Source: a virus. Taken from it: DNA of 39,126 bases. The position numbers and the translations under genes are program-made. Of this stretch, positions 20,664 through 34,947 are shown piece by piece (positions within the stretch are counted from its first letter, which is position 1; every line of letters begins with the position of its first letter). The stretch is taken from positions 1-39,126 of IMG/VR virus record IMGVR_UViG_3300005734_000009. One strand, 5' to 3'. The notes beneath the pieces were generated by a model. That model searched no databases, was not told where the DNA came from, and saw only the letters and a list, made by a program, of their open reading frames with translations.

Positions 20664-21131
20664 TCACCCTGCCTTCTTCAGTTCGCGCACAGTGATCAGC
20701 TCACGCGCCCGGCTTCGTTTGCCACCTGGTAGCATCATCTGCACTGCCTGATGAGCCTGAGCCAGTCGGCGGTGGTATGTGCTGCTGCTGCAGCCACAGG
20801 CAGCGTGTTTCTGTACTGGGGTGCTGGTCATGTTCAGGTAATGCTCACGGATCACCTGGCCGAGCTCTGGTTTCTTCTTTTCTATATGACGAACTGCCTT
20901 ATCAGTGTCAAAGATGGCATCAGGCATGCTGGACGCTGGTACCGTGCTGCGTACGACAACCCCTTTCGATTCCATGAGTGTTGATACAACGCTGCGGCCG
21001 TATCCGATACCCGGATCATCGAACTTATCCCGCGCCTTCCATTCTGCCCAGTTGGTCAACCGATTATCGATTGATGGGATCATCCGTTCCGCCATTCTGC
21101 TTACCCCGATGCTGTTTGATGAATTACTCAT
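20664..21131 (-). CDS. Q-like late antitermination protein
   Basis: 155 residues from the ATG at 21131, which has AAAGGAG nine bases before it; the longer frame to 21173 runs into the repeat array and is not preferred. The C-terminal half has VIREHYLNMTSTPVQKHAA, CGCSSSTYHRRLAQAHQAV and a basic tail, the helix-turn-helix-like pattern of the phage antitermination protein Q family (phage 82 type). Such proteins load on RNA polymerase at the late promoter and let it pass terminators. It is the last early gene before a promoter with tandem terminators, the expected place. Confidence 0.75.
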   Translation of the reverse strand: MSNSSNSIGVSRMAERMIPSIDNRLTNWAEWKARDKFDDPGIGYGRSVVSTLMESKGVVVRSTVPASSMPDAIFDTDKAVRHIEKKKPELGQVIREHYLNMTSTPVQKHAACGCSSSTYHRRLAQAHQAVQMMLPGGKRSRARELITVRELKKAG

Positions 21132-21162
21132 TGCTAACCGCTCCTTTCCCCTTAAAACTCCG

Positions 21163-21431
21163 TTACCGGACATTTACCGGACATTTTTTCTTACATCCGG
21201 GAACATAACTAACTGATTTACTTACACTTACCGGACCTACCGGACTTACCGGACATTATTTAAGCCTCGCGTAAGAGTTTTTTTTGTTACTTAAACCAAT
21301 GACTACCGCGTAAAAATACGCCCGCGCGCGCGGTAAAAACCTCCGGTAAGTCCGGTAAGTCCGGTAAACCTATTAATTTCAATAGGTTGCCGTCCCGGAC
21401 ATTGAAACCTTACATCCGGTAAGTCCGGTAA
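21163..21431. repeat. Symmetric array of 9-bp repeats, candidate origin
   Basis: The unit is TTACCGGAC. Forward copies lie at 21163, 21174, 21228, 21237 (CTACCGGAC) and 21246. Inverted copies (GTCCGGTAA and one-base variants) start at 21341, 21350, 21359, 21414 and 21423. This gives 2+3 copies facing 3+2 copies about a centre near 21297. A weaker pair (ATCCGGG at 21195, CCCGGAC at 21394) has the same centre. The middle has an AT-rich run and a (CG)n tract. The right arm also holds AACCTATT/AATAGGTT (21367-21388). The array begins right after the helicase stop and fills the whole 300-base gap before the Q gene. Iterons of this kind act as replication origins or operators. Confidence 0.85.
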
Positions 21432-21432
21432 A

Positions 21433-23103
21433 TTAAGTCGCACGATGCACCTCCATCGCTTTTCTAAAGTCAGTAACACACTCACCCAACCACTTGCTTT
21501 GAGTCTCGCCATCCGGTTGATCACCCACCACCAGGAACGTCCCCGTCTTTTTACTGGTGCCAATGTAATACGTGACATCCCGCCGCCGCTTACCCCGGCT
21601 CGGTACCGACACAAACGAACTAAACCGCTTGAGACTAATCGCATTTTCATTGCCGCTATGGCACCAGTCCTTATACACCTGGTACAAATCTGACATCAGA
21701 CAGGGAGCGTACGGCACCCAAAGCCGCTTACTTCGCCATTCCTGATAGAATGAATCCCAGCCCGACCGACCGAAATCAATCAACCGATCTTTGGCATCTG
21801 TCATCGGTGGCTCATAGTGAGTGTGGAAACCAGTGAGATTGACATTCAACAGATAACGGTAGAAAGCCTTAACCCCGCCGCCATTAATCTCTGCTATCGC
21901 ACGATCTCTAAGCGTGTGGTCTAACTTACCTTCCGGCCAAATCACCAACATACGTCGGTCACCCGCCTCTACCGGAAACGGCTGAATCTCATTAGAGAGA
22001 AACACCGCATTCATATGGTTGGCCTCTTCCCAGCCTGAAACGAATTTCTTCTCAATCCGCATTGTTTCGCCGGTAATCATCTGCTTAAGCGTGCCGGTGT
22101 GGCTGTACTTCTGATCGCGGCTGAATATCTCCTCAAACACCCCGTACAACATCTGGCTACGCCAATCGGTGTATTGAGATTCAAGCTGATGCTGGCCCAG
22201 CGTTGCACTGTATTCGCCATAAATCTTGCGCATCACACCATCAAAGAAAAGCGACTTACCCGACCCCTGAATTTCAGAGTGCATCATCACCGCCGTAGCC
22301 ATCTTCGCCCCGACGTTCTGCAGTGGATAAGCCAACCACTTAATTAACCAACTGAACACAGCATCATCATCGTTGCAGAGAAACCGAATCAAATCCCAGA
22401 TGGCAGAACACCCCTTCTCTGACTCAGCAGGCTTAAGCGCCAACCCACGGAACATATTGATATGCGTATCAGGATCCACCGATTCGGTCGGATCAAATAC
22501 CAGGTTTTCAATATCGATTTCATCCCGATGCGGATGCTTGATCCAATCATCAAAACAATCAGCTATTGCCACCTTCAAACCAGTAATCGATACAACCTTG
22601 CGTTTCTGCCGATCCCAAGCACTGGTTTCAGGGTAGAGATACACATAACGTTGCAGCGCCTCACTAATACCCCCGCGCCCCTCTTTTTGGGCGGCGAAGG
22701 ATTCGCGTTTTACTACATCCTGCTCTACAACCCGGCGGTTTTCGTGTGCCATCCACTCATTGAACAGCTCTTTACCGATCAACTCACGGAAAGGCACCTT
22801 CTTAACCAACTGCTTCTTATGGCTGTCCCAGATCTTTCCATCGGGCATTGCGTAGCAATAACGCTGAATCAGAGTACCAATGGTAAATTTGGCAGCGGGC
22901 TTGCTTTGTTCAGAGGGGTGCGGGGAGTCATCATGGTCACCCACTCCCGCTAACTCTGGATAATCATCGTATCCAGCTGGGCTGTCATTAGCAGCCGGTG
23001 CATTCCGCGCCTGCTCAACCGCGCTCATCACCTGGTCACGCACTGCAGCTAACCCTTCAGAAACATGCAGGTCATTAAAGTCTGTTTGGTTACTTTTACC
23101 CAT
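21433..23103 (-). CDS. Phage replicative helicase (SF3/D5-like, DUF5906 type)
   Basis: 556 residues from the ATG at 23103, two bases after the primase stop. Walker A is SEIQGSGKSLFF near residue 280; the Walker B region is LYGVFEEIF about 40 residues later; VFLSNEIQPFPVEAGDRRM fits the sensor motif. A basic, helical N-terminal half precedes the ATPase, and a winged-helix-like C-terminus follows. With the primase it would unwind and prime the phage origin, as O/P-type systems do by recruiting host proteins. The repeat array directly follows its stop codon. Confidence 0.85.
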   Translation of the reverse strand: MGKSNQTDFNDLHVSEGLAAVRDQVMSAVEQARNAPAANDSPAGYDDYPELAGVGDHDDSPHPSEQSKPAAKFTIGTLIQRYCYAMPDGKIWDSHKKQLVKKVPFRELIGKELFNEWMAHENRRVVEQDVVKRESFAAQKEGRGGISEALQRYVYLYPETSAWDRQKRKVVSITGLKVAIADCFDDWIKHPHRDEIDIENLVFDPTESVDPDTHINMFRGLALKPAESEKGCSAIWDLIRFLCNDDDAVFSWLIKWLAYPLQNVGAKMATAVMMHSEIQGSGKSLFFDGVMRKIYGEYSATLGQHQLESQYTDWRSQMLYGVFEEIFSRDQKYSHTGTLKQMITGETMRIEKKFVSGWEEANHMNAVFLSNEIQPFPVEAGDRRMLVIWPEGKLDHTLRDRAIAEINGGGVKAFYRYLLNVNLTGFHTHYEPPMTDAKDRLIDFGRSGWDSFYQEWRSKRLWVPYAPCLMSDLYQVYKDWCHSGNENAISLKRFSSFVSVPSRGKRRRDVTYYIGTSKKTGTFLVVGDQPDGETQSKWLGECVTDFRKAMEVHRAT

Positions 23104-23105
23104 AG

Positions 23106-24179
23106 TTACGCTGCAGCCTCCGCGACAAACGTTGGTGAAACAACACAACCACCAACCGCTGCTGCAGCCATTTCAGCTTTTTCCAACCCCGGATTACCCT
23201 TGCCCGCCGCTTCTGTTTCATGATCGTCATCAGCCGCAAACAACATCAATGCAGTAGGATAAAGCGCCCGCAAAGCCTGACCGACCGGCAACAAATTACC
23301 CGCATCAAACGCCACTGCGACAGGCAAGCCCGTTGCCTCATGAATACTCGCCGCTGTTGCATAGCCCTCAGCCACAATTAAAGAATCTGAAACCTCACCT
23401 ATCAGATGCCAGCAGCCACTTTTACGGCCACCCTTCAAAAACTTCTTACCACCTGCTTTAAAAATCAGCTGCAGGTTCTGCACCAGTCCGGTCTCATCAA
23501 CCATCGGTACTATCAACGTATCCGTCTGCAGGGCAGCAAAGGAAGTGATCTCATGGTCGTACTCAGTCCAGTTTTTGCGAGATCTCCAGAACTGATCCCG
23601 GTCGGTCTTAACAATCAACAACTGCCAATTCAATGGCTGCTGCTGAACAATGTGAATCATTGCTGTTGTAGGAAAAAAAACACCGAACCCCCGAACCTTC
23701 TTCACTCCGAGATAAGGAGACCGACCAATCTTCTTGCAGTGCCCGAGGATTGTCCGGGCTGCATTCGCCGCGTAAGCCGCCAGCTTATTATCATGCTCTG
23801 CCTCAGCCAGCGCTTCTTTCTGACGCTCAACTTTTCGCTGAGCGGCTTCATCTGCCAGGCGTTTCTTATCTTCCTCATTGACTGAACGGCGTTTATAGCC
23901 GTTAGCAATTGCCTCATGGAACAAACTGGCGATAGTGATAGTGCCGCGATTACCCGCCGTTTTTATCGCCTTCCAATCTGCCCGAATCTGCTTTTTGTTG
24001 TAGCCTTCATCACCAGCGCTCCACTGGTCCCATACATCGAAACCGGCTTCACCAAATTCATTCTTTATTGCACAACCCATACGGATCCAGATATCACGCT
24101 TATCAGCATGCACGTAACACAATGCATCAGCGACCTCATCCAGCGTGCAAGCTTCAAAATCCCGCCCCTTGTTGTTCAT
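23106..24179 (-). CDS. PriCT-2/Toprim primase
   Basis: 357 residues. Residues 1-90 form a PriCT-2-like domain (ADKRDIWIRMGCAIKNEFG, DVWDQWSAGDEGYN). A charged linker follows (about 95-135). The C-terminal Toprim domain has LIVAEGYATAASIHEATG near residue 265 (catalytic Glu) and LMLFAADDDHET (metal aspartates). This makes RNA primers for phage replication. It lacks an archaeo-eukaryotic primase domain. It is translated with the helicase gene in the early operon. Confidence 0.88.
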   Translation of the reverse strand: MNNKGRDFEACTLDEVADALCYVHADKRDIWIRMGCAIKNEFGEAGFDVWDQWSAGDEGYNKKQIRADWKAIKTAGNRGTITIASLFHEAIANGYKRRSVNEEDKKRLADEAAQRKVERQKEALAEAEHDNKLAAYAANAARTILGHCKKIGRSPYLGVKKVRGFGVFFPTTAMIHIVQQQPLNWQLLIVKTDRDQFWRSRKNWTEYDHEITSFAALQTDTLIVPMVDETGLVQNLQLIFKAGGKKFLKGGRKSGCWHLIGEVSDSLIVAEGYATAASIHEATGLPVAVAFDAGNLLPVGQALRALYPTALMLFAADDDHETEAAGKGNPGLEKAEMAAAAVGGCVVSPTFVAEAAA

Positions 24180-32954: not shown

Positions 32955-33154
32955 CCGCCGATCCACTCGACCGCGCCAACGCCACATCAGAGCTCTTCTT
33001 ACAAGAAGCCCTCGCCAACCAAAAGGCCAAAGCCGTCAGCCTGCCCAACACCGGCAAATGCCACGCCTGCCACGAACCAGGCATCAACGGCGTATTTTGT
33101 GACGCCGAATGCAGCCAGATGTACGAAGAGCTGAAACGCAACGGAAAGGTTTAA
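32939..33154 (+). CDS. Small zinc-finger protein
   Basis: 71 residues. The N-terminus DPLDRANATSELFLQEALAN resembles the start of TraR/DksA-type phage proteins, which bind RNA polymerase. The C-terminus has CHACHEPGINGVFCDAEC, a four-cysteine zinc site that departs from the usual DksA spacing and looks more like the small DUF2116 type. The function is unknown; transcription modulation is possible if the TraR likeness is real. Confidence 0.55.
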   Translation: MDVSVAADPLDRANATSELFLQEALANQKAKAVSLPNTGKCHACHEPGINGVFCDAECSQMYEELKRNGKV

Positions 33155-33165
33155 CACCCCGAAAC

Positions 33166-33197
33166 AAGCCCCTTAATTGGGGTTTTCTGGGTGAAAA
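33166..33197 (+). repeat. Intercistronic hairpin element, copy 2
   Basis: AAGCCCC-TTAATT-GGGGTTTT followed by CTGGGTGAAAA, nearly identical to the element at 30018-30050. It lies just before the methyltransferase gene, as copy 1 lies just before the CsrA-fusion gene. Confidence 0.7.
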
Positions 33198-33219
33198 ATC
33201 CAGCATAGGGAATACAGCG

Positions 33220-34947
33220 ATGAACGCGCATTTTAGAACACAATACGGACTACCACTTAACCAGATTGAAGAAGAGATTAATGTTGATATCTTTGCTGGC
33301 GGTGGAGGTGCAAGCACAGGGATTGAAATAGGATTAGAGAGGCCTGTACACATCGCAATCAACCACAACCCTAATGCTATCAGTATGCATGAGGCCAACC
33401 ACCCCGGCTGCACCCACTACGAAACCGACGTATGGGACGTAGACCCAGCTGAAGCGCTGCGCGGTAGGAAGGTTGGCTGGTTCCACGCATCACCGGATTG
33501 CACCCACCACAGCCAAGCCGCCGGCGGACAACCCAGAAAGAAAGAAATCAGAAACCTCTCTTGGGTTGTCACCAAATGGGCGGGCATCACCTCCCCTAGA
33601 GTTATCAGCCTGGAAAACGTAAAGCAGATCCGCCAATGGGGGCCGCTCATCGCCAAGCGCTGCAAAAAAACAGGCCGCGTTATTACGCTTGAAAAGATCA
33701 CTTGCCCAGCAACAGGCAAACTAATCAATCGAGTAGCGGAACCAGGCGAACGAGTACCCCGCCAAAACCAACACCTGATACCTGACAAAAAACGCAGCGG
33801 CAAAACCTGGGCGAAATTCATTCACTCTCTTGAAAGCCTTGGTTATACCGTTGAGCACAAATTATTAAAGGCTTGCGACTACGGCGCCCCCACTTCACGA
33901 GAAAGGTTGTTTCTTATCGCAAAGCGAGACACCAACCTCATCGAATGGCCCGAACCAACCCACGCGAAAAAGCCAGCCAAGGGACAAAAGAAACTCCGGA
34001 CAGCCGCAGAATGTATAGACTGGTCTATTCCAGGTAAAAGCATCTTCAACCGTGACAAACCTCTGGCCGAAGCCAGCATGCGCAGAATCGCCAAAGGTAT
34101 CAAGCGCGAAGTTCTTGATCGTACTGAGCCATTCATTGTGCCTATTGCTAACTGGAGTCACGAAACCATACACCAGGTTGATAAGCCTCTAACCACAATC
34201 ACCGCCCACCCAAAAGGCGGATCTCACGCCCTTGTATCACCAGTATTAACCCCTTACTACGGCGGTGAAATTAAAGGGAATAGAGCGCACTCCATCGAAG
34301 AACCGCTGCGAACCCAAACAACAGAGAACCGGTTTGCCCTAGCTTCTGCCAACCTGATCCACCTACGCAGCAATTGTGATTACCGAAAAGTGGACGACCC
34401 ACTCATGACGATTAGCGCCGGAGGCCAGCACCACGGTTTAGTAACTGCCTTCATGGCACAGGCGAATGGTGGATTTAATACCACCCACTCCAAAGCAGTT
34501 GACGAGCCAATGACAACAATCACCAAGACTGGCAGTCAACAGCAGCTAATTGAGCTCAAGCTATCACCTGAACATAAAGAAGACGCCCTACGCTGCGCCG
34601 CATTCTTGATTCGCTACTACGGCACCGGAGGCCAATGGGGTGATCTACGAGAGCCAATCCACACCCTAACCACCAAAGACCGCCTAGCCCTAGTAACCGT
34701 TTGGATTAAAGGCGATCCCTACGTCATTGTAGATATCTGCCTGCGGATGCTTCAACCACACGAACTGTATGCCGCCCAAGGATTTCCGGCTAACTACATC
34801 ATCTCTCACGGGCATGATGGCCGTAAATTCACCAAAGCACAGCAGGTGTTTATGTGCGGCAACAGCGTTAGCCCCATGCCAATGGCAGCGATAGCCCAGG
34901 CAAATGACCCATATCGAATTCAACAGACACTAGAAATTGCAGCTTAA
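33220..34947 (+). CDS. C5 cytosine DNA methyltransferase
   Basis: 575 residues from the ATG at 33220 (AGGGA ribosome site); an earlier in-frame ATG at 33109 lies within the upstream gene and is rejected. Motif I: VDIFAGGGGASTGIEIG. Motif IV: ASPDCTHHSQ, catalytic cysteine in a PDC instead of the common PCQ. Motif VI: SLENV. Motif VIII: APTSRERLFLIAKR. Motif X: CGNSVSPMPMAAI. Between VIII and X, where the target-recognition domain lies, are five related blocks (for example DKPLTTITAHP and DEPMTTITKTG). It methylates phage and host DNA, probably to escape restriction; no partner nuclease is seen. Confidence 0.93.
   Translation: MNAHFRTQYGLPLNQIEEEINVDIFAGGGGASTGIEIGLERPVHIAINHNPNAISMHEANHPGCTHYETDVWDVDPAEALRGRKVGWFHASPDCTHHSQAAGGQPRKKEIRNLSWVVTKWAGITSPRVISLENVKQIRQWGPLIAKRCKKTGRVITLEKITCPATGKLINRVAEPGERVPRQNQHLIPDKKRSGKTWAKFIHSLESLGYTVEHKLLKACDYGAPTSRERLFLIAKRDTNLIEWPEPTHAKKPAKGQKKLRTAAECIDWSIPGKSIFNRDKPLAEASMRRIAKGIKREVLDRTEPFIVPIANWSHETIHQVDKPLTTITAHPKGGSHALVSPVLTPYYGGEIKGNRAHSIEEPLRTQTTENRFALASANLIHLRSNCDYRKVDDPLMTISAGGQHHGLVTAFMAQANGGFNTTHSKAVDEPMTTITKTGSQQQLIELKLSPEHKEDALRCAAFLIRYYGTGGQWGDLREPIHTLTTKDRLALVTVWIKGDPYVIVDICLRMLQPHELYAAQGFPANYIISHGHDGRKFTKAQQVFMCGNSVSPMPMAAIAQANDPYRIQQTLEIAA

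Follow-up and report, generated by a model that had tools for sequence, protein, structure and literature searches.

The region discussed here lies within a stretch of 39,126 nucleotides (the window), which encodes terminase, portal, head protease, tape measure, tail fibre and integrase, together with repressor-like and CII-like genes, and is a complete temperate phage. Three neighbouring genes on its minus strand are of concern: a primase with matches to the PriCT_2 and Toprim domains (23106–24179), a DUF5906 SF3 initiator helicase of 556 amino acids with a C-terminal winged helix (21433–23103), and a Q-like antiterminator (20664–21134) that matches phrog_4300 and, weakly, phrog_79. The helicase most likely starts at the ATG at 23103, directly after the primase stop, rather than at the TTG of the listed open reading frame. 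Between the helicase stop and the start of the Q-like gene at 21134 is an intergenic gap (21135–21432), and it is this gap that holds the array of repeats described below. In the window the primase gene lies next to the helicase gene but is distinct from it (23103–23108); the two are also separate in Halomonas H4907 and Turba, and fused in PG1 and Mcat4. Elsewhere in the window, a DNA methyltransferase of 612 amino acids (33109–34947) aligns through residues 38–605 with 306 positions of phrog_116, leaving a long unmatched stretch that suggests an insertion.

The assignment of the helicase is based on several lines of evidence. The window protein matches Pfam PF19263 (E 4.6e-18), as do all 45 aligned members of the family, and 22 of these 45 also match Pox_D5. 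In the alignment, the SF3 Walker A and B motifs, the sensor and the arginine finger (GxGKS, EE, LSN, and DRR) are invariant or nearly so. The AlphaFold2 model (pLDDT 86.6) contains a winged helix at residues 470–525, predicted with high pLDDT as two helices (470–483 and 491–498) and two strands (505–514 and 517–525), and a further helix at 535–555. Fold comparisons (Foldseek, VIA-align) match this model to the NrS-1 helicase (Z 28) and the SaPI5 primase-helicase (Z 18), and also to the D5 proteins of ASFV and poxviruses and to E1. The N-terminal part shows an apparent tandem duplication in both alignment and model: a unit of about 45 residues, RYxxxxPxxxxWDxxKxxxxK...GxxxxxxW, occurs at residues 75–118 and 145–190 (residues 75–190 being encoded at window positions 22534–22881).

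The array is made of a 9-bp iteron, TTACCGGAC, present in 10 copies (seven exact, and three with one mismatch) arranged as 2 + 3 facing 3 + 2 around position 21297.5. On the plus strand, an outer group of two exact copies (21163–21171 and 21174–21182) is followed by a core triplet (21228–21236, 21237–21245 with one mismatch, and 21246–21254). On the minus strand, the opposing core triplet (21341–21349 with one mismatch, 21350–21358, and 21359–21367) is followed by the second outer group (21414–21422 with one mismatch, and 21423–21431), whose last copy is one base from the helicase stop codon. At a tolerance of one mismatch, the whole window holds 16 matches to TTACCGGAC, against 4.5 (sd 2.0) in shuffled versions, and none of 100 shuffles reached that number. 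Ten of the 16 are packed into 269 bp. The remaining six occur singly and scattered, roughly as often as chance predicts.

The symmetry of these sites is close to exact. The triplets are centered at 21297.5 and the outer pairs at 21297.0 and 21298.0, while a weaker pair, ATCCGGG/CCCGGAC (21195–21201 and 21394–21400), again falls at 21297.5. Mirror complementarity reaches 0.69 inside the sites vs. 0.38 outside them, so the symmetry is a property of the sites. All of this agrees with the original prediction, made from the sequence of the window, which had listed ten 9-base copies as 2 and 3 facing 3 and 2, a common centre at 21297.5 for the triplets and the weak pair with the outer pairs within one base of it, arms that are unlike between the repeats, and a central AT-rich run with a (CG)n tract. 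Read as 9-mers, the members of the weak pair are TTCCCGGAT on the minus strand (21195–21203) and GTCCCGGAC on the plus strand (21392–21400), each with two mismatches and each inverted relative to the adjacent iterons. De novo detection with a position weight matrix (PWM) recovers them as sites 11 and 12; the first has the position and orientation of strong inverted singles in relatives, and the second is its mirror partner. The resulting plan of the window is therefore 2 + 1 inverted + 3 facing 3 + 1 inverted + 2, or six sites per half, although the weak inverted pair may lack a bound protein in this phage.

Is this arrangement peculiar to one phage? Relatives of the helicase were drawn from IMG/VR, GTDB genomes and GenBank phages, giving 66 loci after dereplication, window included, and a de novo search for a word repeated on both strands was run at each locus over 620 bases surrounding the helicase stop. 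Opposed cores follow the helicase stop at 63 of the 66 loci, that is, in the window and in 62 of 65 relatives, whose helicases are 34–68% identical to that of the window. The phages and prophages concerned come from Pseudomonas, Hahella, Marinobacter, Moraxella, Halomonas, and other hosts. Their common layout consists of two cores of 2–3 sites facing each other across a central gap (median 93 bp, interquartile range 89–100), with more sites outside. In 63/66 loci the arrays lie within about 0–330 bp of the helicase stop, and the first site lies 0–28 bp past the stop in nearly all of them. Counted from the centre across the aligned loci, the core sites of one strand cluster at −45/−54/−63 and those of the opposite strand at +45/+54/+63, and the flanking groups are some 96–145 away.

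What is conserved is the layout and not the word. The iteron is about 9 bp long throughout, and at most loci it differs from that of the window: in addition to TTACCGGAC, the family uses TGCCGACAC, CATGCCGTTCAT, AGGCCGGAGGG, GCCTAGGGT, AAACCCGTAAA, AAGTTGAAGA, TGGCACGGGT, TGTGCAGGGT, and TGTGTTGGGT, among others. A search for the 9-mer itself in related phages, which the original prediction had put forward as a check, is for this reason misleading. Among the IMG/VR contigs matching the 9-mer pattern, five with at least six copies (L089, L096, L109, L116, and L182) were rejected as related arrays, as they have no such helicase and carry collagen-like Gly-Pro-Thr coding repeats, which look like tandem CCGGAC 9-mers and would be mistaken for iterons. 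Neither megablast of the region against phages nor blastn of the array against E. coli genomes returned any match.

The number of sites is also fairly constant. The median is 12 per array at all thresholds from 6 to 8.5 bits (63 loci), and exactly 12 are found in 30–33 of the 63 loci, where chance would give 0.13–0.42 sites per 350 bp. A 6 + 6 split is the commonest at each threshold (25–28 of 63 loci). Many of the loci are Pseudomonas relatives, and splits were consequently also counted by helicase cluster at 65% identity: 6 + 6 is modal in just 6 of 16 clusters, the others having 4–7 sites per half, so that "about six per half" is a tendency and no law. Mirror symmetry varies likewise. The clade resembling the window forms a complete mirror image, whereas in a large Pseudomonas clade (L048, L053, L216, and others) the right outer group is oriented like the left one while the core is still mirrored, which means that full mirror symmetry is not essential. 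Tested locus by locus against random placement, the mirror gives values below 0.01 in 27/64 loci, which settles the matter for the clade resembling the window; for the Pseudomonas clade the test is not decisive. Three loci failed the automatic core call. At L013 and L038 the calls are weak or displaced, a mirrored repeat being visible by eye in the former and a similar array lying farther along in the latter, while L045 has no detectable array at the helicase stop (1 of 66 loci). Directly after the gene for the distant DUF5906 primase of Yuavirus YuA, no such array is seen.

The space between the cores is itself organized. Read along the helicase strand, it carries a tract of alternating CG/CA, frequently CGCGCGCG with GCGTA after it, then a variable middle, an A/T run, and finally a box close to TTTYTYNYGCGAG that contains YGCGAG and is often palindromic (CTCNCGNGAG). 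In the window, these elements are a Z-DNA-prone (CG)5 tract at 21323–21332, which occupies one half of the centre, and, in the other, A/T-rich half, a T8/A8 run at 21278–21285 beside the box, which reads CTCTTACGCGAGG on the helicase strand (minus, 21265–21277). CG alternation exceeds that of random segments from the same locus in 59/64 loci, and the box is significant (p < 0.05) in 41/63, mostly ending 7–12 bp before the core. Across centre-aligned loci, AT content peaks at 0.63 in the centre, between the two half-arrays, with the CG tract taking up part of that space; the centre of Moraxella Mcat4 is A/T-rich and has no CG tract. With the CG tract on one side and the A/T run and box on the other, the centre is directional despite the symmetry of the sites.

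Which protein would read iterons that change so readily? Two pairs of close relatives bear on this. The helicases of L036 and L207 (Hahella sp. HN01) match fully over the SF3 core and are near-identical until about 57 residues from the end, then diverge; their iterons are ACGCCACAGGTT and ATGTGCAGGGTT, at nearly the same positions and in the same layout. DNA identity between the two is 95% upstream, drops to 41–65% over the helicase 3′ end plus array, and recovers to 71–91% beyond. L035 and L037 show the same pattern, with TATACAGGGT vs. TGTGCAGGGT and a somewhat longer divergent helicase end. Within each pair, all the iterons differ but Q keeps 91% protein identity. As iterons and helicase end change together while Q is largely kept, these comparisons point to the helicase C-terminus, and not Q, as the most likely reader of the array. 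Placed on the AlphaFold2 model, this divergent end matches the beta-hairpin wing of the C-terminal winged helix, together with its last helix. Its counterpart in the window, the proposed iteron-reading part, is encoded at 21436–21609 (minus strand, boundary approximate). Among pairs with a core identity of 0.70–0.78, mean C-terminal identity is 0.44 when the motifs differ and 0.66 when they are alike; a sliding-window analysis of co-variation over all pairs gave no localisation, phylogeny dominating the signal. It can also be observed that in L036, L207, L035, and L037 the helicase 3′ end and the putative origin (about −300 to +340 around the stop) have apparently been exchanged together, like a specificity cassette.

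Taken with its position, the array is best read as the replication origin of a temperate phage, of the PICI/SaPI and P4 type, a reading to which we assign a probability of about 0.88. The original prediction had also favored an origin, and gains support from the recurrence of the layout after the helicase in 62/65 relatives and from a word that changes with the C-terminal end of that protein. The GC skew of the window shows no turn at the array. The other proposal of that prediction, a regulator array controlling Q, would make the segment a binding site for Q or another transcription factor acting on the downstream antiterminator gene. The array does lie just upstream of a Q-like gene, and the next gene is Q-like (phrog_79 or phrog_4300) in several relatives as well as in the window. 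However, in L036/L207 and L035/L037 the sites do not co-vary with Q but with the helicase C-terminus; Pseudomonas phage Turba has the array, yet its next annotated gene runs on the other strand; and the segment yielded no sigma-70-like promoter. Control of Q is accordingly very unlikely.

Hardly better placed, and likewise very unlikely, is the possibility that the helicase binds the array as a control or enhancer element comparable to crr of P4, with melting taking place elsewhere. In P4, crr with its type-1 iterons is indeed directly 3′ of alpha, and ori is about 4.5 kb away. The window, however, has no second iteron cluster, its leftover one-mismatch matches being isolated and close to the chance number, and unlike crr the arrays have, between their opposed cores, a conserved centre with A/T-rich and CG-alternating parts. 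One could finally imagine that what is conserved is a hairpin or cruciform in the DNA, as proposed for replicons of the pRN1 type, of which the repeats are just the arms: a single strand of the segment folds far better than shuffled versions (z −7.8), and pRN1 requires a stem-loop 3′ of its replication gene (PMC4234260). The complementarity is nevertheless limited to the sites (mean 0.74 inside, 0.35 outside), and on these grounds the cruciform was rejected as the conserved feature. Moreover, the Pseudomonas clade has outer groups that are not inverted, and spacing is kept in steps of 8–9 bp, as for protein sites. A folded strand as the conserved element is thus extremely improbable.

If the array is an origin, initiation might proceed as follows. 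The C-terminal winged helix of the helicase would bind the iterons, and each of the two facing half-arrays, with its approximately six sites, would probably nucleate one SF3 hexamer, bringing two hexamers head to head across a centre of about 95 bp. This seating is proposed because of the precedents of SaPI Rep, SCCmec Cch2, and the PICI rep-ori segment. Melting would start at the A/T run and adjoining sequence in the centre, while the alternating CG tract could absorb or insulate superhelical strain, Z-DNA or a priming site being other options. The helicases would then unwind in both directions, with priming by the primase encoded just upstream and extension by a host polymerase. We consider the chances about even that the arrays of this family are origins built as a fixed dock for two hexamers, with six sites per half and a constant centre (CG alternation, then A-T and YGCGAG), and that the whole origin together with the initiator wing makes up an exchangeable specificity cassette. 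If the cassette reading is true, these phages can switch replication specificity in a single recombination step.

Several consequences follow for work in the field. Origins in such genomes could be located by a simple rule, in the approximately 300 bp that follow a DUF5906 helicase gene; natural initiator/iteron pairs become available by the dozen for learning how a winged helix reads DNA; and the seating of two SF3 hexamers at an origin gains a testable model. No description of this family of arrays was found in the open-licence literature on DUF5906 phages, Z-DNA at origins, and temperate-phage iterons, and an earlier one may exist.

How does the array compare with known replicons? It is intergenic and follows an SF3 helicase gene, and so departs from origins of the lambda O type, where iterons lie inside the initiator gene and the helicase loader is separate. 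The alpha protein of P4 is a primase-helicase with a Toprim-type primase and C-terminal DNA binding (see also PMC4234260). P4 resembles the phages described here in having crr, with short iterons in both orientations, directly 3′ of alpha; it differs in its two direct 120-bp crr repeats and in an ori with type-2 repeats 4.5 kb away, whereas the window has one compact bipartite array, other one-mismatch matches being scattered. SV40 T antigen and papillomavirus E1 are SF3 helicases that act at opposed short sites, assembling as two hexamers beside asymmetric melting elements. The fold of E1 is matched by the window helicase, but at SV40/E1 origins the sites are between the melting elements, while in the phage arrays they are outside the central region. 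In both of these viral proteins, the DNA-binding domain is N-terminal (PMC7581432). The putative SCCmec origin has direct repeats just downstream of the helicase gene that are bound by the C-terminal domain of Cch2 (PMC7581432), although these are merely three 5-nt iterons without mirrored halves.

The PICIs and SaPIs (SaPIbov1, SaPI5, and EcCICFT073) share the order of primase and self-loading initiator helicase genes followed by an origin in which two iteron sets flank an AT-rich region. The C-terminal domain of SaPI Rep recognizes iterons directly downstream of its own gene (PMC7581432), and PICI origins, located 3′ of rep with the AT-rich region between their two iteron sets, support replication of a plasmid when carried on a rep-ori segment (PMC6092414). 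In the phage family, a putative origin occupies the same position, immediately 3′ of the helicase gene, at 63 of 66 loci, and the fold of the SaPI5 primase-helicase is matched by the window helicase, which falls in one structural group with the helicases of the PICI/SaPI and P4 replicons; that the C-terminus sets iteron specificity here is indicated by comparison of L036 with L207 and L035 with L037. The differences are equally clear. With its terminase, portal, head, tail and integrase genes the window is not a PICI: unlike in these satellites, its array sits in a complete phage with head, tail and late genes. The window primase is of the Toprim (DnaG-like) type, in contrast to the AEP primases of SaPIbov1 and SaPI5, and the arrays have iterons of about 9 bp in a fixed plan of about 12 sites, around a centre that conserves a CG-alternating tract and a YGCGAG box. 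The replicon type of PICI/SaPI and P4 was already known. New are the plan common to the whole family, its conserved centre and the apparently exchangeable specificity cassette. A PICI/SaPI-like organization thus occurs, more regular than in its models, among complete temperate phages and prophages that form a broad family.
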